Position numbers and translations under genes: made by a program. 64,000 bases of DNA from a virus. The stretch spans positions 25,593-89,592 of IMG/VR virus record IMGVR_UViG_3300042484_000849. One strand, given 5' to 3'. Each line of letters starts with the position of its first letter. Positions within the stretch are counted from its first letter, which is position 1. The notes under the pieces are model-generated. The model did no database searches. It was not told where the DNA came from and saw only the letters and a program-made list of their open reading frames with translations. Shown piece by piece: positions 1 to 63,812 of the stretch.

Positions 1-421
1 CATTTGGTTCACCATTACTCAATGCGTATTTGTGCTTATGTTGTGTAAAGATAGCGTTTTGTGTAGCATTTGGATTGTGTTCATCTAACCAATCTTTTTT
101 AGCTCCTACACTGGCTTCAGCATACGGTCCACGCAATGGAGCACTCAATACAGTGTATGGAATATTGTGTTGATTTAACCATTGTACAACTCTGCCGCCA
201 CCCTCTAGAGGTTGTAGTTCTCTAAAAAACTTATATACTTCTAAGGGGCTACTTGAGGCTAATTCATTGATTGATGTTTCAGTATCAGGAATCTCTTTAT
301 AATTACCAACATTATGTTTTGCGGCCCAAGCTCCAAAGAAATCAGCTTGTACCCCATCCATATCCAAATATAGATGTGGCATTTTTTTGTTTGTATCTTC
401 CATTAATTCCTTAATTTTCAT
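1..421 (-). CDS. HAD-family 5'-nucleotidase-like protein with capsid-targeting-like N terminus (partial)
   Basis: The reading frame starts at 421 and runs off the left edge, so the C terminus is missing. The HAD nucleophile motif is visible as LDMDGV (D20 and D22), with a likely motif II near TVLSAP, as in 5'(3')-deoxyribonucleotidases, which remove phosphate from deoxynucleoside monophosphates. Such an enzyme would act in nucleotide salvage. The first residues, MKIKELMED, do not belong to the HAD fold. They match the T4 capsid-targeting pattern (E5-L6, then an L-x-E site after residue 8) seen on six other proteins in this window. I infer it may be packaged into the virion. HAD assignment is solid; the substrate is a guess. 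Confidence 0.75.
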   Translation of the reverse strand, partial: MKIKELMEDTNKKMPHLYLDMDGVQADFFGAWAAKHNVGNYKEIPDTETSINELASSSPLEVYKFFRELQPLEGGGRVVQWLNQHNIPYTVLSAPLRGPYAEASVGAKKDWLDEHNPNATQNAIFTQHKHKYALSNGEPN

Positions 422-16958: not shown

Positions 16959-18854
16959 TTAAGTTGATTCCTTAACCTCTGCATCTACCACATTGTCGTC
17001 AGATTTTTGTGATTCAGATGTTTCTTTAGCTTTTTGTTCCTCTTCAGATTTAACTTTAGTAATAGGACCAATAGCTTCATATAGTTCTTTGACCTTGTTG
17101 TCAATTTCTTCAACTTCAGACCCAGCTAATGCAACTTCTAGTGCATCAATAGCATTAGATGCTTTTTCTTTTTCTTCTGCTGTAACTTTGTCACCGTATT
17201 TTTCATAGTCTTTACGGAAACTATTTAATGTTGATTCACCGCTATTTTTTGCTTGAATGAATTTAACTTGTTTAGCATCAGCCTCAGCATTTTCTTCAGC
17301 ATCATTAACCATCTGTTGAATTTCTTTTTCAGTTAGTCCTGAATCTGATTTGATAGTGATTTTATTTTCTTTGCCTGTACCTTTGTCTTTGGCACTGACA
17401 TTAAGAATTCCATTAGCATCAATATCTAATGTAACTTCAATCTGAGGAACACCACGCATTGAAGGTGGAATACCCTCTAAATTAAATTCACCTAATATCT
17501 TATTGTATGTAAACAAATCACGTTCACCTTGTGCAACCTTAATAGTTACAGCTGGTTGATTGTCATCTGCTGTTGAAAACACTTGTGAATGTTTAGTTGG
17601 AATAGTTGTATTCTTCTTAATCAACTTAGTAAACACACCGCCTGATGTTTCAATACCCAAACTTAATGGGGTAACATCAAGTAACAATACATCTGTACGT
17701 TCACCGGCTAACACACTACCTTGAAGTGCCGCACCCGCTGCCACTGCCTCGTCTGGATTAACATCCTTGCGAGGTGCTTTACCGAACAATGATTCAACAA
17801 TTTCTTGTACTTTTGGCATACGTGTCATACCACCAACAAGAATAACTTCGTCAATATCAGATGTAGAAACACCTGCATCAGTCATTGCTTGCTTACATGG
17901 TTGAATACTACGTTGAATTAATTCATCAACTAATGATTCTAATTTAGCACGACTTAACTTAACATTCAAATGTTTAGGACCATTAGCATCGGCTGTAATA
18001 TATGGTAAGTTAACATCTGTTTGTGCTGAACTTGACAATTCAATCTTAGCCTTCTCAGCCGCTTCTTTTAAACGCTGTAGTGCTAGCATATCTTTCTTAA
18101 GATCAACCGCATTGTCTTTCTTAAACTCATCAACCAAATAATCCATGATACGTTGGTCAAAGTCTTCACCACCTAAGAATGTATCACCGTTAGTTGATAA
18201 TACTTCAATTTGAGTTTCGCCCTCAACATCTGCTAATTCAATAATAGATACGTCAAATGTACCACCACCCAAGTCATAGACAGCAATCTTGCGATCCGTT
18301 TTATCTTGTTTATCTACACCGTATGCTAGAGCAGCCGCTGTAGGTTCGTTAATAATACGTAATACTTCTAATCCTGCAATACGTCCTGCATCTTTAGTAG
18401 CTTGACGTTGACTATCATTGAAGTAAGCTGGCACTGTGATAACTGCTTGAGTAACCGTTGTACCCAAATAGTCTTCCGCAGTCTTTTTCATTTTGCGTAG
18501 TACTTCAGCACTAATTTGCGGAGGTGCTAATTTTTTATCTAATACTTCCACCCATGCATCACCATTCTCGTTTTTAACGATTTTATATGGCATTAAATCA
18601 ATATCTTTTTGAACAGCGTTTTCTGTGAACTTACGTCCAATTAATCGCTTGGCAGCGTAGATAGTATTTTTGGGATTTGTAACTGATTGACGTTTGGCAC
18701 TTGCACCTACTAGAATCTCATCATTGGCATAGGCAACGATTGAGGGTGTAGTTCTTGCACCTTCACTATTTTCAATTATTTTGGGGATTCCGTTTTCAAT
18801 AACGGCTACACATGAATTTGTGGTACCTAGATCGATACCGATTACTTTGCTCAT
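16959..18854 (-). CDS. dnaK: Hsp70 chaperone DnaK
   Basis: I use the ATG at 18854 ([15 protein letters not shown]) behind AAGGAG, giving 631 residues; a 17-codon upstream extension is part of the leader. All Hsp70 parts are present: phosphate loops ([19 protein letters not shown]), the linker region [16 protein letters not shown], the peptide-binding domain, the helical lid and a C-terminal NVVDAEV, like bacterial DnaK tails. It refolds or holds proteins with DnaJ and GrpE, neither seen here, so host cochaperones are probably used. Full-length DnaK is rare in phages. It lies next to hsp20 and clpS. Confidence 0.95.
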
Positions 18855-18860
18855 AGTTTT

Positions 18861-18876
18861 CTCCTTTGTAAAGCAA
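18861..18876 (-). promoter_or_regulatory. ROSE-like element at the dnaK ribosome binding site
   Basis: UUGCU, six bases, AGGAG, then 6 bases and AUG on the minus strand. The same UUGCU/AGGAG pairing as in the hsp20 leader is possible. An alternative CUUU/AAAG stem would also cover the site. Confidence 0.35.
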
Positions 18877-18885
18877 GATTTTTTC

Positions 18886-18912
18886 TCTATAGACCCGTTA
18901 GGCATCTACAGA
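18886..18912 (-). other. 5' leader hairpin of dnaK
   Basis: TCTGTAGA and TCTATAGA pair over 8 bases (one G-U) around an 11-base loop. It lies just downstream of the AATAAATA box at 18917-18924. Confidence 0.5.
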
Positions 18913-18962: not shown

Positions 18963-19181
18963 TTAGTACAACTTTTTAGGCAATTGCTGGTCACGCAAAT
19001 ATTTGTCCCAACGTCTTTTAGCTTGACTTTTAGCTAGTTTACGTTTAACAGTAGGTTTCACAAATTCTTGTCGGTCACGGGTTTCTTGTAAAGTACCATA
19101 ATCTGTAATCATTTTCTTGAACTTACGTAAGGCCTTTTCTGTATTTCCGTCATTAACTAAAACTTTTCGTCCTCTAATCAT
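18963..19181 (-). CDS. rpsU: Ribosomal protein bS21
   Basis: This 72-residue basic protein matches bacterial S21: an N-terminal V-x-x-x-E/N start, [15 protein letters not shown], the EF-KPTVKRK core, and a Lys/Arg-rich tail ending KKLY. bS21 sits by the anti-Shine-Dalgarno region of the 30S subunit and helps initiation. Phage S21 proteins are known in aquatic phages and proposed to bias initiation towards phage mRNAs. It overlaps the ClpX gene by 4 bases, so the two are co-translated. Confidence 0.93.
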
Positions 19182-20383
19182 ATTGCGGCTTTTGGCTGTA
19201 AAATTTGCTCCTGATTAATATTTATCTTTTTAATGTTATTTTCACGGTACTTCTTAGTGTTATACATATGAGGCATCAAAACCTTTTCAATCTCTGTATG
19301 TAAACCACGGGCACCGGTCTTTAATTTCATTGTATTTTCGGCTAGTTGTGAGATGGCATCTTCTGTAAAATCTAATTCAATGTCATCTAAACTTAATAGA
19401 TATTTATATTGGTCAATATAGTTGTTTTTAACTTTGGTTAGAACCTGAATCATTTCATCTTTAGTCAAATTATCTACATTAACTGTAGTAGTGAAACGTC
19501 CAATGAATTCAGGAATCATTCCAAATCGTGTTAAATCATCTGGACTAACCATAGATAAATCACCATCTTTACGTGAGTCCTTAATATCAGCACCAAATCC
19601 AATACTAGTTCCATTTATCCTATTGTTAACAATATCCTTTAATCCAACAAAAGCTCCGCCCGCAATGAACAGAATGTCTTTTGTATTAACTTCAATCATA
19701 TCACCGCTAGGATGTTTACGTCCACCACCTGCTGGAATACGACATACAGTACCTTCAACCATCTTCAATAATGCTTGCTGGACGCCTTCACCTGATACGT
19801 CACGGGTAATACTAGCACCCTCACTCTTACGGGCAATCTTGTCAATCTCATCAACAAACACTATACCACGTTCTGCTAACTTAGGATCTCCCCCGGCAGC
19901 GTTGACTAGCATACTAATCATTGATTCAACATCATCACCTACATATCCGGCTTCTGTTAAACTTGTAGCATCAGCAACAATGAAGGGCACTTTGAGATAT
20001 TTTGCTACTGTTTTAGCAAGCAAGGTTTTACCTGAACCAGTTGGTCCGATCAATAATACATTGCCCTTATGTATCTCTAAATCTTTAGGAGGATTGTTAA
20101 TACGTTTATAGTGATTAGCGATAGCTACACTAAGAACCATTTTAGCATTAATTTGACCAATAATATGTTGGTCTAAGAAATCTTTAATAGTTTCTGGATC
20201 ATATCTAAGATGGTCTTTTTCAATGACCTCATCTGAAGTATTATTTTCATCTACCATTAATTGAGTACATAACTCAATACAGTCGCTACAAATAGCAACA
20301 TCTTCTCCGACGATTAATTTATTAACGGTATCTTTATGATTACCGCAGAATGAGCAATGACTTAATTTTGTTTCTGTTGACAT
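19178..20383 (-). CDS. clpX: ClpX unfoldase
   Basis: This 401-residue protein has every key ClpX part. These are the N-terminal zinc domain (C10, C13, C32, C35), Walker A GPTGSGKT (113-120), pore loop GYVG (146-149), Walker B with D178-E179, the ClpP-docking loop IGF (261-263), and the sensor-2 GAR. It unfolds tagged proteins and threads them into ClpP. The docking loop implies it can still work with a ClpP, from phage (12679-13275) or host. The C terminus is slightly shorter and diverged. It is translationally coupled to bS21. Confidence 0.95.
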
Positions 20384-25118: not shown

Positions 25119-26453
25119 TCACTTGTCGTCACGGAAACGAACAAATCTGGGGAAACGCAAACTATATGTTCCATCTTGATTCTGTGTAATCACATCACAT
25201 AAGACTTCAGCAGTGCGACCAATGACCAAATTACGGTTAGTCCAATAGTCATCTCTATCAGCATCACTAAAGCCACTACCCACATTGACTGTAATTTCTT
25301 TCCCGTCGTCAACTCCATGACAAACCAGTGCTCCAAGTCTTCCCAAGTTTCTACCAGTACCTTCTTCAACACCTACGACCTCCAAGTCTACAGTTAATGT
25401 TGGCTTCCATTTCATCCAGTCAGTACTACGCTTACAGATATACGGAGCCTCTAATTCTTTAATCATAATGCCTTCAAATCCTGCATTAACTTGATCCTTA
25501 GCATAACGTTCAAGTTGATCCTTACCTGCGGCTGTATCTAAGTCAACCATAATATGTGGTAATAGTTCAACATTAGGCATAGTGTCAACTACATGCCGAA
25601 TATGTTCAAGTATATTAATACGTTTACGTAGTTGAGCATTCCAATGACCTTCACGGAAATCACTTAAAGGAATAATATCAAAGATATTAAACACACTGTC
25701 ATCCGCTTGTACATCAGTCTTGCGGCGTGCTTGTCGCATTAGTTCCTGGAATGTATTACCAATCACTTCACCATCTAACACAAATCCATTAATCAATGCG
25801 TTCTGATGTCCTCTAGCAATCTTAACAAAGTTGTTGCTAATCTGTTCTTCAATATGACCAAAGTTATCAAATACTTTACCATTACGACTGAAACAAATAG
25901 TAGTTACTCCCTCACTTGCACTAGGTATAACCATCAACAATACACGTACACCATCCAACTTAGGCTCTAAACGTTTAGTGCCTTTCATCTCAGGACGACC
26001 TTCACTATTAGTTGCTAGTTGACAACCAAAGATAGGGATTTCATATTCTGTTTTCTTACAGATTTTGTTAATTGTTTTGTCACTAATACCTGCACGTAAA
26101 TCTCTACGAATAACAGGAGCACAGAATGTATTCCATTCTATACTATCAAAACGTTCACTGATTTCATTGATAGCATCTAGTGCGGCATTACCTGACAAAT
26201 CACGTTGTGATAACATAGTAAGTAATGTATTAAACTCACTCCAAGGATTTTCAGCATCAATGATGCCTGCTGTATCAGGAACTTTTCTTACACCAAACGT
26301 CACGTAGGGATTATAACAAGCTTTAGTCAAACCCAGAAAAATCTGAGCATTAGTGCTACCTAGGACACTTGCCTCAAGCGCCTGTAAAATGATATCTTCT
26401 TTATGAAGGCGGCTATCTGATTCGTTTAATTTATTAATCCAACTTGCACTCAT
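25119..26453 (-). CDS. ATP-dependent DNA ligase (T4 gp30-like)
   Basis: I choose the ATG at 26453, which overlaps the upstream stop (ATGA) and has GGAG upstream, giving 444 residues. The adenylation lysine is K165 in EPKLDGVR. Further nucleotidyltransferase motifs are visible: VLDGEVIG, GFEGIMIKE and DWMKWKP, then a C-terminal OB-like end. The enzyme seals nicks during replication and repair. The N-terminal helical DNA-binding part (about 1-130) fits T4 gp30. It sits in a minus-strand run of small genes. Confidence 0.92.
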   Translation of the reverse strand: MSASWINKLNESDSRLHKEDIILQALEASVLGSTNAQIFLGLTKACYNPYVTFGVRKVPDTAGIIDAENPWSEFNTLLTMLSQRDLSGNAALDAINEISERFDSIEWNTFCAPVIRRDLRAGISDKTINKICKKTEYEIPIFGCQLATNSEGRPEMKGTKRLEPKLDGVRVLLMVIPSASEGVTTICFSRNGKVFDNFGHIEEQISNNFVKIARGHQNALINGFVLDGEVIGNTFQELMRQARRKTDVQADDSVFNIFDIIPLSDFREGHWNAQLRKRINILEHIRHVVDTMPNVELLPHIMVDLDTAAGKDQLERYAKDQVNAGFEGIMIKELEAPYICKRSTDWMKWKPTLTVDLEVVGVEEGTGRNLGRLGALVCHGVDDGKEITVNVGSGFSDADRDDYWTNRNLVIGRTAEVLCDVITQNQDGTYSLRFPRFVRFRDDK

Positions 26454-38499: not shown

Positions 38500-38916
38500 T
38501 TAGCTAACTTCTGTGCGCCCGTTTCCTAAATCCTTTGTACGGATTACCCTTGCGTCACGGTTCTCAGGATCAGCAACCTGCTGTTCATACATTTCCAAAG
38601 CTATATTCCTGCAGACTGTTTGAAACCACCTATCTACTATGATAACATCTGTATCATCATCTCGTTGTTTATAACCTGCTTTAATAAGATTTAACACAAA
38701 CTTATCATTGTAATCTAAGTCAAATGAACCATCATTGATATTTTGAGGGTTGATTTCTACTTTATTAATAGCTACGTATGGTTCACTAGCGGCAGTAGCT
38801 TTTTCTTTTGCAGTAAGCTCCGGTGTAAGGGGTTTCTGTTGTTTAGGCTTCGGCTCTTTTTTAACAACAGGTTCAACCTCTTGTTTTTTAAATAAGTTTT
38901 TTAATTTGTCAAACAT
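38500..38916 (-). CDS. Conserved T4-like phage protein
   Basis: This 138-residue protein has a basic, Pro-rich N terminus (KKEPKPKQQKPLTPELT) and the core SEPYVAINKVEINPQNINDGSFDLDYNDKFVLNLIKAGY, then VDRWFQTVCRNIALEMYEQQV. That core resembles proteins shared by T4-like cyanophages. It overlaps the UV-endonuclease gene's end by 16 bases. Function unknown. Confidence 0.68.
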   Translation of the reverse strand: MFDKLKNLFKKQEVEPVVKKEPKPKQQKPLTPELTAKEKATAASEPYVAINKVEINPQNINDGSFDLDYNDKFVLNLIKAGYKQRDDDTDVIIVDRWFQTVCRNIALEMYEQQVADPENRDARVIRTKDLGNGRTEVS

Positions 38917-39926
38917 TTGTATCTTTCGTATAGTTTAAAGCTGGCAAGATTCTTTGCCTTTGATTCACACATCATATCAAAGTTATCTAAGAATGTCAAT
39001 GCCCAATCGTTCACCGCATCGTTCCAATAGTAATCACTATGTGCCCGAAGTTTTTGTTTACTATGACCTGCTTCAATCAACGCACCATGAGAGGGTAACT
39101 GTGATCCGGGATGTCCGACAAGTATATCTTCACGGCTGACGGAGTAATGTAAAGTAGGCCTAACACCGCGCCAACTATCAATGACCATCTTAACAAGGTC
39201 ATCAGTAGGTTGAATATATTCACCCTCTCGGATCCAATTGTGATGTATGTCCATGACCGTAGGTACGAGGTCAGATAATGATAAGCAGTCTTTAAGTCCA
39301 TGTGTGTATTCCTCATTTTCTAGTGTTAGTGTGTTTCTCGCTTCTGGCGACAATCTATTGTACACATCTCTAATGCCTTGTGGGCCTCTACGTCCAGAGA
39401 TATGTACATTTACTTTGAAGTCTTGAAATGTCTTCCCATAGCCCATAAAACGAACCATGTCACAATGATATTCAAATTCTTCTATACTCTTATTTACTAC
39501 CTCGTCACGGTCGCTCGCTAAAACTACAAATTGATCCGGATGAAATGATAGACGAACATCATTAGCACGTGCTGTTTCACCAATGGGTGCCATCCAACGT
39601 TCTAAACTATTCTGTACATCTGCACTATGCCAAAATTCTTTGTACCCATCCATAGTGTAGAAACTGAACATATCGCTAGTAAGACGAACCATACGCAATC
39701 CGGGTTCCAATGTGGCAACACGCTTAACAAGTGCGTGAGTGTTCATAATGTTACGTTTAGCAACATCCATAATCTTTTCTTCTACAACATCACGCTTATT
39801 ACGCTTTGCCCACGCTTGTGTAGTTCCACCTGTGTTAAGGCCTTCTGCTGAAACAATCTCACCTTTGTGATTGATTTCTGCCCACTTACAAGCAAAGCCG
39901 ATGCGTTTGATAGATTGATTTGTCAA
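38901..39926 (-). CDS. uvsE: UV damage endonuclease (UvdE/UvsE family)
   Basis: The frame could open at 39968, but a promoter (39959-39987) places that ATG upstream of transcription. The TTG at 39926 (LTNQSIKRIGFACKWAE) is the likely start, giving 341 residues. The TIM-barrel metal motifs are visible: LSFHPDQF, NVHIS, LENEEY and VMDIHHNW. The enzyme nicks DNA 5' to UV photoproducts. Phages in sunlit water often carry such repair genes. It lies back to back with the capsid-tagged operon. Confidence 0.88.
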   Translation of the reverse strand: MTNQSIKRIGFACKWAEINHKGEIVSAEGLNTGGTTQAWAKRNKRDVVEEKIMDVAKRNIMNTHALVKRVATLEPGLRMVRLTSDMFSFYTMDGYKEFWHSADVQNSLERWMAPIGETARANDVRLSFHPDQFVVLASDRDEVVNKSIEEFEYHCDMVRFMGYGKTFQDFKVNVHISGRRGPQGIRDVYNRLSPEARNTLTLENEEYTHGLKDCLSLSDLVPTVMDIHHNWIREGEYIQPTDDLVKMVIDSWRGVRPTLHYSVSREDILVGHPGSQLPSHGALIEAGHSKQKLRAHSDYYWNDAVNDWALTFLDNFDMMCESKAKNLASFKLYERYKCLTN

Positions 39927-39942
39927 AGTAATAGTCCAAAGT

Positions 39943-39950
39943 GATAAATA
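39943..39950 (+). promoter_or_regulatory. Late-like box for the four-gene capsid-tagged operon
   Basis: GATAAATA, 56 bases before the start at 40006, followed by a short hairpin (39960-39976). A minus-strand sigma70 promoter overlaps this region. Confidence 0.45.
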
Positions 39951-39958
39951 ATATATAC

Positions 39959-39987
39959 AGTGTAGCATACCTACGCAATAAAGTCAA
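39959..39987 (-). promoter_or_regulatory. Sigma70-type promoter of the UV endonuclease gene
   Basis: TTGACT, 17 bases, TACACT. It makes the ATG at 39968 unlikely as the start. Confidence 0.65.
39960..39976 (+). other. 5' leader hairpin of the capsid-tagged operon
   Basis: GTGTAG, loop CATAC, CTACGC (one G-U pair), about 10 bases after the late-like box. Confidence 0.5.
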
Positions 39988-40005: not shown

Positions 40006-40683
40006 ATGAGATTTAACGAAATTATATCAGAGAGTTCAGGAACCAGACTGAAAGACATAGCAAAAATTGCTACTAATATGCAGGATGCTGACTTTTGGTT
40101 AATACGTAAGGGTAGCGATAAGACAGTAGGTAAGCCTGTTAAAGAGTTTGATCCTTCAAGGATTGGCATTAAAGTTGTAAAAACTGATGTTCTTGATCCA
40201 AACTATCTTTATTATGCAATGATGAATTTACATAACCAGGGACATTTTGCTCGTCTAGCAAATGGAACAACTAATTTAGTTAATATTACTGTAAATGACA
40301 TTGCTAATATTCCACTAGGTCAACAAGATGTGGCAGAGGGTGAGAATTGGGCAAAACATAATAACAAACGTGTAGGTGGCATGAGTAAAAAATCTGTAAA
40401 GAGTTATCGCCGTAGCCATCCTGGTAGTAAAATTCAAACAGCAGTAACTACTAAACCTAGTAAACTTAAAAAGGGCAGTAAAGCCGCTAAACGCCGTAAA
40501 TCATTCTGTGCTAGAATGAAGGGTATGAAGAAAAGCAGAACAAGTGCTAAGACAGCGAGAGATCCAAATAGTAACATTAACAAGAGTTTGCGTAGATGGA
40601 ATTGTGAATCTATTGAGCAGATGGAAGAATTAGTAATGCTTGCCGAACAAATGGTAGCAAAGGCTAGAAAAGAAATACTATGA
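40006..40683 (+). CDS. Capsid-targeted basic DNA-binding-like protein (TRD-like plus DUF6321-like)
   Basis: This 225-residue protein begins MRFNEIISESSGTRL, matching the capsid-tag pattern with an I-S-E site after residue 9. Residues about 25-110 resemble a half target-recognition domain of restriction HsdS (GKPVKEFDPSRIGIKVV ... ANGTTNLVNITVNDIANIPL). The C-terminal third is very basic with KRRKSFCARMKGMKKSRTSAKTARDPNSNINKSLRRWNC, a DUF6321-like phage segment. It probably binds DNA or RNA. As first gene of the operon it is likely late-expressed and packaged; delivery is inferred. Confidence 0.68.
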   Translation: MRFNEIISESSGTRLKDIAKIATNMQDADFWLIRKGSDKTVGKPVKEFDPSRIGIKVVKTDVLDPNYLYYAMMNLHNQGHFARLANGTTNLVNITVNDIANIPLGQQDVAEGENWAKHNNKRVGGMSKKSVKSYRRSHPGSKIQTAVTTKPSKLKKGSKAAKRRKSFCARMKGMKKSRTSAKTARDPNSNINKSLRRWNCESIEQMEELVMLAEQMVAKARKEIL

Positions 40684-42440
40684 ACTTTACAGAATTATTT
40701 GAGGGTGCAACACCCAAATTACCGGGTGCTGTAGGTGGCATTAAAGTTATGAGCATGGATCAATTCCTTGCTCAATCGGGTGATGAACCGGAAGAAAAAA
40801 TAGATGAAATGTCTTCCGAAGAATTAGATAACATGTCCCCTGAAGAATTAGTTCGTTTTACTAATAATGCTAGAAATAATAAACTTAAAAATGTAGATCC
40901 TAATGCAATTGATCAGGCTTATGGTAAAAGTATTTCTATAATGTTTCCTGATAGTGATAAGCGTGATAAACAATCTACAAATCATAAACAGCAAAATGTA
41001 AACGAAGGCATTATAGGTGATGTATATAATAAATTAAAATCAATGGTGCTAAAAGTGTTGGGTAAGAAAATGGTCAAAAATCCAACTGACCAAATTTCCT
41101 TTCAGCGTATGATGAGTAGAGTTACTGGCCCACTTGATACCACTCAATATTCAAAATTATGGCAAGACTATAAAAATGACAAACACTACTATGTTAGGTT
41201 ACCTACGCTTCAGGATATGAACAACAGCGAACATATGTATTTGTGGTCTAATAGTCTATCACAATACGTAATGGATAAATTTCCAAACGCTTCAACTGAA
41301 GCATTACTACAAGCTGTAGAAGGATTAACGCAGTTAGCAGTGAAAGACTTTAAACAAAGTTATCGTGATTTAGATGAAGCAACCAAACTGCCAGCACAAA
41401 CACGTGAACTAAAAGGTCAAGAACTAGACGATTACTTAGATAGAATTCGTAATCGTGAAAAGGGTAAAACAGACAAATATAAACTACCCTACATCCATCG
41501 CTCAAGTGTAGTCAAATACTACAATGAAGAAGGTAAACGCTACGATACAGATCAAATCAAAACAGCATTAGGTGTCCGTCCAAAGAAACTTCTTAAACAA
41601 AATGAGAAGATGAAACATAGCAATGGTGAACTAGAACAATTCTATAACATTGGTTTTGCCGCACTAGTTGGTATAGCATTAGATGAAGGTACAAATGAAC
41701 TAATAGTAGTTAATACATGTCCGGGTGCTGGTTCATGTAAAGTAGATTGTTTTGCTATGAAGGGCGGTAAGGTTCAATTTGAAGGTCCTTGGTTAAGTGA
41801 TGGAAGAATACTTACTTTCTTATTAAATGATCCAGATGGTTTCTTTAATCAACTAAGTGCAGAAATTACTAAAGAAGAAAAATCAGCACAAAAAGGTGGC
41901 TACAATTTAACTATTCGCTGGCATGATGCTGGTGATTTCTTTAGCCCAGAATATATGGACCTAGCATTTAAGTTGGCATCTAATCATCCTGATGTTAAAT
42001 TCTATGCTTATACAAAGATAGCTGATGCGGCATTAGGTCAAAAGCCAAGTAACTTTATTGTTAATTGGAGTGAAGGTGCAAGTACTAGCCAAGAAAAACA
42101 AGTTAAACAACAAGACCCGCAATTAGATGTAACTAAGAATAGTCGCATCGTTCCTAGTAAGTTATTCTATGACTTATTGAAGAAGGATAAAGATGGTAAG
42201 TTAGATAAGACTGCTGATGGTGCTTGGCAACCACGTGATGCTGCCGCACTAGAAGAATTAAAAGATAGATTAGCACAACAATATAATCTAAAACGTGATA
42301 CTATCATTGATTACAATGAGATGATGGCTACTCCGCAGAAGAATAACATTAAGAAATGGAATGTTATTATTGCTCCGGGTGAAGGAGATATCAGTGCTAA
42401 TAGACAAGATGTATTGTCAACCTTATTATTGAAACACTAA
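40680..42440 (+). CDS. Capsid-targeted GP88-like protein
   Basis: This 586-residue protein begins MNFTELFEGATPKL with an L-F-E site after residue 8. After an acidic helical spacer, the C-terminal half carries C347-x5-C353-x3-C357 (NTCPGAGSCKVDCFAMKGG) and then RWHDAGDFFSPEYMDLAFKLA and FYAYTK. This is the phage Gp88/DUF7227-like family, which resembles radical-SAM-type barrels with a metal-cluster motif. Its reaction is unknown. The start overlaps the previous stop (ATGA). Placing a cofactor enzyme behind a capsid tag is unusual. Confidence 0.72.
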   Translation: MNFTELFEGATPKLPGAVGGIKVMSMDQFLAQSGDEPEEKIDEMSSEELDNMSPEELVRFTNNARNNKLKNVDPNAIDQAYGKSISIMFPDSDKRDKQSTNHKQQNVNEGIIGDVYNKLKSMVLKVLGKKMVKNPTDQISFQRMMSRVTGPLDTTQYSKLWQDYKNDKHYYVRLPTLQDMNNSEHMYLWSNSLSQYVMDKFPNASTEALLQAVEGLTQLAVKDFKQSYRDLDEATKLPAQTRELKGQELDDYLDRIRNREKGKTDKYKLPYIHRSSVVKYYNEEGKRYDTDQIKTALGVRPKKLLKQNEKMKHSNGELEQFYNIGFAALVGIALDEGTNELIVVNTCPGAGSCKVDCFAMKGGKVQFEGPWLSDGRILTFLLNDPDGFFNQLSAEITKEEKSAQKGGYNLTIRWHDAGDFFSPEYMDLAFKLASNHPDVKFYAYTKIADAALGQKPSNFIVNWSEGASTSQEKQVKQQDPQLDVTKNSRIVPSKLFYDLLKKDKDGKLDKTADGAWQPRDAAALEELKDRLAQQYNLKRDTIIDYNEMMATPQKNNIKKWNVIIAPGEGDISANRQDVLSTLLLKH

Positions 42441-42958
42441 TGAGAGCAAGTGAATTTATAACTGAAGCACATCATAGTATAATGAAAACTATGACTATAG
42501 GATCATGGCGTGTACTTATTGACTCACACGCAGTAGTAAGTATGACTGCTAGAAATGTATCACCTATAACTTTTAGTAATATTATAACTTATGCTTCTAT
42601 TTATCCTGACGTAGCAGCCACAATACCAATTGGTAAGGGTGCCTATGTTCAAGATACTAATACTCTGGTTAGTGTGTACATTCATAGATTAAGTCAAAAT
42701 GAAATAAGGGTGGAAACAGTATTAGGTCCTGACATGAAACCCAAACCTCCGCTGTTTCGCAGACCAGTACCAAATACTAATAATGTAAAAATTGATCCAA
42801 AATTTTTAAATGGTCAAAATAAATTAGCTCAAGATATTCAAAAATACGGACGTGACGATATTAGTAAAAGAATATCAGCGGTTGCTCCTATATTAAATTT
42901 AAATAGAGCAGATTACCGTAAGTTTCAACGGTTGATGAAAAGAAAAAACAAAAAATGA
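42440..42958 (+). CDS. Capsid-targeted hypothetical protein, possibly nuclease-like
   Basis: This 172-residue protein begins MRASEFITEAHHSI, with an I-T-E site after residue 9, nearly identical to T4 internal protein tags. The core (WRVLIDSHAVVSMTARNVSPITFSNII...RVETVLGPD) has the strand-helix order of small RelE/barnase-like toxins, but I cannot confirm catalytic residues. The C terminus is basic and helical (FQRLMKRKNKK). The start shares the A of the previous stop (TAATG). A small injected toxin-like protein is one hypothesis. Confidence 0.6.
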   Translation: MRASEFITEAHHSIMKTMTIGSWRVLIDSHAVVSMTARNVSPITFSNIITYASIYPDVAATIPIGKGAYVQDTNTLVSVYIHRLSQNEIRVETVLGPDMKPKPPLFRRPVPNTNNVKIDPKFLNGQNKLAQDIQKYGRDDISKRISAVAPILNLNRADYRKFQRLMKRKNKK

Positions 42959-43644
42959 GAGCAAGTGAATTTATTGATGAGGATATTAGTCGTAGGGACC
43001 TGCTTAAAGGTGTAGCAGGCGCTGCCGCATTAGGTGCTACTGGATTAGCTAAAGCAGGTCAATATCAACCCTATGATGAACTTATAAAAGATAAAGAAGC
43101 TTTGGTGAACGTATGGGGTCCTAGACTAGAACAATTACAACAACGTGCTAATACTATGCTTAACAGATTAGCAAGAACAGCGGGCCCTGCTTGGGCAAAA
43201 CAATTAGCAGGAACACAACTTGTTGTGCAGTCAAATGAAAGCTATGTGCAAGCCAACGCAGGCAATAAAACTATAAGTATGGATATTACTGTGTTCTGGG
43301 ACGCACCTGATGAGATACTAGCATTTGCTATAGCACACGAATTGGGACATATTGCTCTAGGACACATTGATGATGTTACTCCGGCGCAATCTCGTAAAGA
43401 AGAAATAGATGCTGATGATTTTGCTGTTAAATTGTGCAAGGCCTTAGGGTACAATAAGTCCGGACTATTTAAGTTTATGCATAGTAAAAAAGAAATGTAT
43501 GCCTACTACAATCTTATAGCAAGTCAACCCAATAGCACACATCCTAATTATGACCAAAGGATAAAACGTGCTAAGAAACAAGGTTTTCAATTGTCAAAAG
43601 GTGGTGTTCAACAGTTGAATACTCTAATGACACATTTAGCATAA
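42955..43644 (+). CDS. Capsid-targeted M48-like zinc protease with Tat-like signal
   Basis: This 229-residue protein begins MRASEFIDED, with an I-D-E site after residue 9. Directly behind it is SRRDLLKG (R13-R14) followed by a hydrophobic stretch and AKA (cleavage expected near residue 34), a classic Tat signal. The enzyme part has H128-E129-x-x-H132 (AHELGH) and E150 (EEIDADDFA), as in M48 metalloproteases. Hypothesis: the tag is cut in the prohead, the protein enters the cell with DNA, and the exposed Tat signal sends it to the periplasm. Not tested. Confidence 0.82.
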   Translation: MRASEFIDEDISRRDLLKGVAGAAALGATGLAKAGQYQPYDELIKDKEALVNVWGPRLEQLQQRANTMLNRLARTAGPAWAKQLAGTQLVVQSNESYVQANAGNKTISMDITVFWDAPDEILAFAIAHELGHIALGHIDDVTPAQSRKEEIDADDFAVKLCKALGYNKSGLFKFMHSKKEMYAYYNLIASQPNSTHPNYDQRIKRAKKQGFQLSKGGVQQLNTLMTHLA

Positions 43645-62858: not shown

Positions 62859-63812
62859 TTATTGAAAGATTTCTGGATGTGCTTTGCCAAATATCTTAAT
62901 ATACTTGCCAGCCATCACATCCGCTTCTGCTTCTATTGGACTACCGGGATAACTATCGCCCGGTTTAATCATATTTAATTCACCCTGACGCACATGTGTT
63001 AATTCATGGAAAACAGTGCGTAATATATCTACTAAATTTCTATTAGCACAATACACCCATACTTCACCCGTCTCTGGATTGTGTCTACCAGTATGATGAC
63101 CTTCTTGCGCTTCATCACTATCATAACTAAACTCTATCTTTGGAGTAGTTTCTAAATTTAACTTCTTACTTGTCCAAGCAAGAAACTTCTTTACAATAGG
63201 ATTGTTATTTAAATCTTCTTGTTCAGATTCAGTAATGTAGGGTTTTAATAACTCAGGATCATATCCATTATGTCTAGCGGAATCTCGCAATCGTCTTAAT
63301 CCTTTAGCTTCAATTTCTCTTATTCTATTTCTAGACAAGTCAAACTTATCACCAATCTGTTGTAATGTCATATCATACCAAAATCTTAAAATTAATACTT
63401 TTCGTTGGTCATCGGTTAATCTGTTTAAGCCATTTTGAATAATTTGTTTAATACTATCATCTATTTCAGGATCTTCACCAGCTGGATCTTTATATGGCAC
63501 TCGTTCTGCTCTGTTATAAATATCGTTAGGATCATTTAATGTTGGCATTTTATTATAGGATCCGCGATATGTTGTACCATCCGGGTTGTAATGTCGTCCT
63601 CCAACCTCATCTAGTTTATCTTTAATCCAACTGTCCGGAGTCTTATGATATTTTCTAACAAACAAATCATGCAATGCATCACCGGTTATACGATGTTTCT
63701 TTGCTATCTTTTTCATTAGTTTATCAATGGTATTATAGTCGTGCTTTTCTAAGCTAGGAAGTTTCTTAGCTAGGTCAGTTGCGGCTGATTCGTATAGTTC
63801 TATTGCTCTCAT
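62859..63812 (-). CDS. Capsid-targeted protein with sigma region 4 and zinc-protease domains
   Basis: I use the ATG at 63812, giving 317 residues; a GTG six codons earlier lies in the promoter box. The start MRAIELYESA has an L-Y-E site after residue 8. Residues about 122-185 form a sigma70 region 4 (LTDDQRKVLILRFWYDMTLQQIGDKFDLSRNRIREIEAKGLRRLR). Residues about 205-317 carry H269-E270-x-x-H273 and EAEAD (E294/E296), a zincin. An I-T-E site at 193-195 could let the prohead protease split the two parts. A late-like box abuts the start. Confidence 0.8.
   Translation of the reverse strand: MRAIELYESAATDLAKKLPSLEKHDYNTIDKLMKKIAKKHRITGDALHDLFVRKYHKTPDSWIKDKLDEVGGRHYNPDGTTYRGSYNKMPTLNDPNDIYNRAERVPYKDPAGEDPEIDDSIKQIIQNGLNRLTDDQRKVLILRFWYDMTLQQIGDKFDLSRNRIREIEAKGLRRLRDSARHNGYDPELLKPYITESEQEDLNNNPIVKKFLAWTSKKLNLETTPKIEFSYDSDEAQEGHHTGRHNPETGEVWVYCANRNLVDILRTVFHELTHVRQGELNMIKPGDSYPGSPIEAEADVMAGKYIKIFGKAHPEIFQ

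Follow-up and report, generated by a model that had tools for sequence, protein, structure and literature searches.

The internal proteins IPI to IPIII and Alt of phage T4 are unrelated proteins that carry a short tag ending in I/L-x-E. In IPIII, the first 10 residues are enough for packaging, and gp21 cuts after L/I-X-E (PMC9026906, PMC5694885). We describe here a gene whose product begins with a similar tag, resembling a capsid-targeting sequence (CTS), followed by a twin-arginine translocation (Tat) signal and a zinc protease of family M48. The gene lies at 42955-43644 of a DNA stretch of 64,000 nucleotides (the window), which covers positions 25,593 to 89,592 of the IMG/VR record IMGVR_UViG_3300042484_000849. 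This source is a partial virus record of 89.6 kb, probably a fragment of a much larger genome, and the phage encoding the gene is probably large and T4-type. The likeness to T4 extends to related carriers, which encode T4-type gp21 and gp23; head packaging, cleavage and ejection are predicted here. Those T4 internal proteins whose roles are known work in the cytoplasm; in the present case, cleavage would uncover a Tat signal on an envelope-type enzyme.

Polyvalent proteins are a second related system. They are large, multidomain, packaged in the head, injected and processed, and they include peptidoglycan-attacking domains (Iyer et al. 2017, PMC5512222). Three of the polyproteins found in this work (L095, L096 and L136) resemble this kind and are also multidomain, whereas the window protein has a single domain. 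Unlike in polyvalent proteins, the export signals here stand directly behind sites of the prohead-protease type, and most carriers are single-domain tagged proteins. The terms 'signal peptide', 'twin-arginine' and 'capsid targeting' are absent from the text of the polyvalent-protein paper (PMC5512222) and of the jumbo-phage paper.

Two enzyme families complete the comparison. Phage GH19 endolysins belong to the catalytic family that is also the main other cargo behind this front end. Their matches in isolates align over the catalytic part only, about 60-80% of the query, and none listed covers the N-terminus with tag and Tat signal. BepA/YfgC and other bacterial M48 proteases share the HExxH motifs with the window protein and, weakly, the fold. 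BepA is a periplasmic protease. The window protein is too short for the second domain of BepA; it also differs from bacterial M48 proteins in being phage-encoded, in its N-terminal tag and Tat signal, and in its weak similarity to cellular proteins. The parts are known (T4 capsid-targeted internal proteins, injected polyvalent proteins, Tat and M48), and the serial arrangement appears to be new. The preliminary description knew of no phage protein with this order. The isolate phages and the full-text literature that we searched agree with it; however, the order recurs in uncultured phages and is not unique to this gene. The bare N-terminus also gave no tblastn match in isolate phages, which is a weak test with a short, low-complexity query.

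The tag, the Tat signal and the M48 domain

The gene and its parts are the following, where an arrow marks a predicted cut in this and later sequences.

42955..43644, + strand: gene for the tag, Tat signal and M48 zinc protease, 229 amino acids (Pfam, homolog alignment)
42955..42981, + strand: capsid-targeting-like tag MRASEFIDE, predicted prohead-protease cut after IDE (E9) (enrichment, homologs, L/I-X-E rule)
42982..43056, + strand: Tat signal peptide, residues 10-34, DISRRDLLKGVAGAAALGATGLAKA (Pfam TAT_signal above cut-off, RR invariance)
43312..43578, + strand: M48 metalloprotease core, residues 120-208 (Pfam Peptidase_M48 2.4e-12, cut-off passed)
43336-43350, + strand: HELGH, residues 128-132

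The layout is MRASEFIDE↓DISRRDLLKGVAGAAALGATGLAKA and then the M48 zinc protease. More precisely, the N-terminus reads MRASEFIDE-DIS-RRDLLKGVAGAAALGATGLAKA before the metalloprotease. The ATG start overlaps the stop of the upstream gene (ATGA). Homologs back the gene (L002/L045, L046/L060, L092-L094, L099, L101-L103, L105 and L048), and the order of tag and Tat signal is kept in them from 86% identity (L002) down to about 33%. A front end of tag and then Tat signal on a zinc protease, as first proposed from the letters alone, was confirmed by Pfam, by enrichment at start codons, by conservation in homologs and by recurrence.

The tag is concentrated at gene starts. With the pattern M[RKN]xxE.. 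ending in [IL]xE, 7 of the 137 first-ATG open reading frames (ORFs) of the 89.6-kb record are tagged. The same N-termini, shuffled in 2000 trials, gave an average of 0.11 and a maximum of 2 tagged starts per trial. Among internal ATGs, the pattern occurs once in 461, and this single case is probably a true start. The site IDE9↓D fits the L/I-X-E rule (PMC9026906). Position 7 varies between I, L and V in relatives, with V in 8 of the 25 distinct N-termini with tag and Tat signal; V is slightly outside the strict T4 rule. The pattern E5, F6, [ILV]7, E9 is retained in the protein despite divergent DNA, and the tag also persists in homologs retrieved with the mature domain alone. Like the T4 tags, it is a short N-terminal sequence common to unrelated proteins, whose location in the head is predicted. 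These observations support that the tag behaves as a T4-type CTS with an I/L-x-E site. It had been placed at residues 1-10; the pattern stands, but the tag is residues 1-9, since E9 is the last residue before the predicted cut.

Among isolates, jumbo phages that infect Sinorhizobium and Agrobacterium, including Atu_ph07 and Phosso, are the nearest by DNA polymerase. Atu_ph07 and Phosso have none and two tag-like starts, respectively; genes with tag and Tat signal were not sought one by one there.

Residues 12-34 (SRRDLLKGVAGAAALGATGLAKA) had been called a Tat signal, and the evidence supports that it is real. Pfam TAT_signal matches residues 10-30 with 23.5 bits (curated cut-off 22.7), and AKA34 is a small-x-A site after a moderately hydrophobic core. 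Likewise, a signal-peptidase-like small-x-A follows the core in 23 of the 25 distinct N-termini. All 20 tag and Tat proteins scanned match TAT_signal with E <0.05, not all of them above the cut-off. The window protein has an S/T-R-R-x-F/L-L-K-like motif, and the twin arginine is invariant in 27/27 of the Tat-like matches listed. A more tolerant scan let K, N, Q, H or S replace R at each of the two twin positions. Among the matches listed in the pooled loci there were at least 27 RR, 4 unrelated RN, and no KK, KR or RK.

The protease domain has the HExxH motif and the downstream glutamate zinc ligand of M48. Besides HELGH, it presents E150...D154 (the region of the third zinc ligand) and THP...R; H128, E129, H132, E150 and D154 are invariant across 16 homologs. 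Its best solved sequence relatives are 3c37 (M48, 3e-6) and BepA (4e-4), and its cellular homologs are distant (best 4e-9). The predicted model has a mean pLDDT (predicted local distance difference test) of 64, with residues 1-37 below 50. Its top Foldseek match is BepA (E 6.5e-3), so the model weakly supports an M48 fold.

The same front end on other cargo, and Tat-M48 units inside polyproteins

We scanned IMG/VR with a degenerate DNA pattern: the tag, 0-30 bases, and then RRx[FL][FL]. The scan gave 64 stretches, of which 29 share the frame of a long ORF; RR is present in 28 of the 29, and the match in L014 was rejected as false (SSR, not RR). Most out-of-frame matches are tagged proteins without a Tat signal. 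By their mature part, the in-frame proteins form seven cargo groups: GH19 (13 proteins, an endolysin-like group), M48 (9, including that of the window), LysM-SLT (L010), L043/L067, L016 (with a GNAT-like sequence), L012 and L064. No GH19 was found in the partial record of the window itself. An alignment of 20 members leaves E5, F6, E9, R13, R14, L17 and A23 as the sole invariant residues. The scan pattern itself imposed E5, F6, E9 and RR; these features are also present in homologs retrieved with the mature domain alone. The spacing from the last E of the tag to RR is always 2 or 3 residues in the 25 distinct N-termini, where 0-10 were permitted.

In one locus, a GH19 gene with tag and Tat signal adjoins an M48 gene of the same kind (L048:3009-4338, - strand). 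Other GH19 proteins, tagged or bordered by LxE (L123, L129, L132, L136, L150 and L151), have a Gly/Ala-rich hydrophobic stretch of non-Tat type before the enzyme, often after LxE↓GWK/R. This stretch may be another type of export or membrane signal.

The M48 mature domain was also used alone as a query, for an unbiased retrieval of homologs. Its free-standing relatives with tag and Tat signal are L092-L094, L099, L101-L103 and L105. The domain also occurs inside polyproteins of two divergent lineages, L095 (1516 residues) and L096-L098 (1447 residues). Their internal Tat signals read LNE614↓AD-RR-DVLKTMAAGAAAAAVPGMSKA in L095 and LSE545↓VD-RR-AALKALGAGAMAAAVPGVAKA in L096, about 545-615 residues from the N-terminus. 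The chance of an L/I-x-E end 2-3 residues upstream of a random position is 0.016 and 0.024 in the L095 and L096 proteins, two tests that are not fully independent because the proteins are homologous. At the other end, the free M48 of the window finishes with ..MTHLA and a stop, and both polyproteins read ..QHLAE↓ at the matching point. M48 is bordered at one end by nucleotidyltransferase- and SprT-like regions (matches below the cut-off) and at the other end by an amidoligase. GH19 offers a parallel: L136 and L123 have an internal LEE↓GW.. or IDE↓GW.. and a hydrophobic stretch before GH19, without RR.

A Tat signal buried more than 500 residues deep should be of use only once the chain is cut just ahead of it. 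For this reason, the polyproteins are the strongest support for the proposal, already made in the preliminary description, that a cut exposes the Tat signal. The internal Tat-M48 units directly behind LxE sites in L095 and L096 favour it independently; for the N-terminal form, a cut may be needed.

The polyproteins L095:1048-5595, L096:1234-5574 and L136:949-3507 have 850-1516 amino acids and LxE sites at several domain borders. Their domains include nucleotidyltransferase-like, SprT-like, dCMP (deoxycytidine monophosphate) deaminase, M48, GH19 and amidoligase, and the proteins resemble precursors that are injected and cleaved by the prohead protease. At residues ~397-425 of L096, GLEE↓GIRDKLATAALAACVAGSPGCATTTP is lipobox-like and lies behind an LxE site. 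It is a possible further internal export signal.

A predicted route to the periplasm and its alternatives

The features of the 42955-43644 product suggest an effector that is packed into the head, has its Tat signal uncovered by the prohead protease and is exported after injection, a reading towards which we lean slightly. Residues 1-9, a strong match to the motif, would bind the prohead core and bring the protein into the head. A T4-type prohead protease would then cut after IDE9 and leave the new N-terminus DIS-RR-DLLK... The protein, of ~24 kDa, would leave the head with the DNA for the next cell, where it would fold with zinc. The Tat system of the new host could export the folded protein, as the intact signal and the invariant RR suggest, and signal peptidase may cut near AKA34. 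For a finished, folded protein that reaches the membrane, Tat would be more suitable than Sec. Finally, judging from its relatives, the enzyme might act like BepA on periplasmic envelope proteins early in infection. In other phages, the same front end would deliver GH19 and LysM-SLT peptidoglycan hydrolases, and in some, Tat-M48 units may be released from polyproteins at LxE sites. The cargo fits export, as it consists of peptidoglycan hydrolases and a protease with periplasmic BepA among its solved relatives.

The type of protease that would make the cut co-occurs with these genes in related records. A 374-kb record (G001), which holds the GH19 gene L031 with tag and Tat signal, encodes an S77 prohead protease (6.5e-26) with gp23 (2e-98) close to it. 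The major capsid protein of this record has a fitting site, KMLAE↓NASGG. A 340-kb record (G012), which holds the polyprotein L098, also encodes an S77 prohead protease (9.2e-25).

Several points weigh against this route. S77 and gp23 gave no match in the window's own 89.6-kb record, a fragment. The same tag is present on proteins without an export signal, among them the M48 relatives L104 and L106, which suggests that export is not essential to this phage M48 family. All carriers found are metagenomic, and packaging, cleavage and export are read from their sequences. The export step presumes a host with a Tat system. Moreover, Tat signals tolerate longer n-regions, and the N-terminal form, behind a 12-residue extension, might work uncut.

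This last point leads to the main rival, export in the producing cell, which we consider unlikely. The precursor would be split between Tat, for a late, endolysin-like weakening of the envelope, and the prohead core, and the tag would reflect packaging of a minority of copies or a secondary use. Besides the tolerance of Tat for extended n-regions, it is favoured by GH19, the main other cargo, being a common phage endolysin family. However, an exported endolysin would need no capsid tag, and the tag is kept together with RR in the homologs retrieved through the mature domain. The polyprotein Tat signals, far inside and behind LxE, should not allow export before cleavage. A late-promoter motif, TATAAATA, occurs 7 times in the window where 11.9 are expected; this lack of enrichment has no bearing on timing.

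Still more doubtful is that the protein is packaged and cut, but with a hydrophobic stretch that is not a Tat substrate and instead anchors the ejected enzyme in the inner membrane or forms part of a DNA-entry conduit. The six GH19 proteins with a Gly/Ala-rich stretch behind LxE and no RR agree with such a role. Against it, the twin arginine is invariant, with no lysine variant among the matches listed, 20/20 proteins match TAT_signal, and 23/25 N-termini have a small-x-A site after the core. Finally, it is very improbable that the tag is an ordinary Tat n-region or a conserved translation-start cassette of a plain exported phage protease: identical first bases in two adjacent tagged genes make gene conversion of starts possible, but many unrelated tagged proteins have no Tat signal, the tag matches the T4 CTS rules (PMC9026906), and its key residues are kept in the protein across divergent DNA.

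Neighbouring tagged genes and meaning for phage biology

Further tagged genes of the window are the following.

42440..42958, + strand: tagged neighbour MRASEFITE↓A, no Tat signal, no known domain
40680..42440, + strand: tagged GP88-domain protein MNFTELFE↓G (Pfam, tag count)
40006..40683, + strand: tagged DUF6321 protein MRFNEIISE↓S (Pfam, tag count)
1..421, - strand: tagged protein MKIKELME↓D, continues beyond the window, 185 amino acids in the record
62859..63812, - strand: tagged protein MRAIELYE↓S, if the start is the ATG at 63812 (the sole tagged 'internal' ATG)

The three genes directly upstream of M48 (DUF6321, GP88 and the protein without known domain) are thus all tagged. Related contigs also have tagged genes in rows: of 6 ORFs in L010, 5 are tagged, and L024 has six such genes. 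The 86% identical L002 has no 42440-42958 gene, and its M48 follows GP88 directly; in L024, M48 has a homolog of that gene on its opposite flank. The adjacent genes 42440-42958 and 42955-43644 begin with the same 20 bases, so recombination at the tag may shuffle cargo.

Two tagged proteins of L024 (5555-6037 and 7215-8726, + strand) start with ..YLYHATQP.. and ..YIYHSVAQP.., respectively. They have an ADP-ribosyltransferase-like look, comparable to T4 Alt, which Pfam did not confirm, giving no match. Directly upstream of the tagged operon, on the opposite strand, there is a homolog of the ultraviolet-endonuclease UvdE (38901-39968, - strand; Pfam 2e-34). A DnaK-like protein (16959-18905, - strand) was recognized by its N-terminal sequence and a match to PHROG 22485 (5e-271). 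The adjoining gene encodes a ClpX-like protein (19178-20383, - strand), recognized by its N-terminal sequence only.

The same front end on at least six other protein kinds in uncultured phages suggests a strategy in which enzymes travel in the phage head, enter the new host by injection and are then exported by that host to its cell envelope. Whether it amounts to a general two-address system in large T4-type phages (a tag, a cut, and an export signal read in the next host, with at least seven cargo groups and the polyproteins) seems to us evenly poised. If true, the phage would place enzymes in the periplasm of the new host from the cytoplasmic side. Packing and injection of proteins that act in the cytoplasm is known from T4-type phages; with a serial tag and Tat signal, these phages would also reach the periplasm as infection begins. 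This order would also explain the use of Tat, through which a protein that refolds after ejection could still be exported. The arrangement gives a searchable rule for any phage genome: a tag ending in [ILV]xE, 2-3 residues, and RRx[FL]L. Possible roles are superinfection exclusion, receptor removal, loosening or repair of the cell wall, and blocking of envelope stress responses. Prohead proteolysis would gain a function beyond head maturation, the unmasking of trafficking signals.
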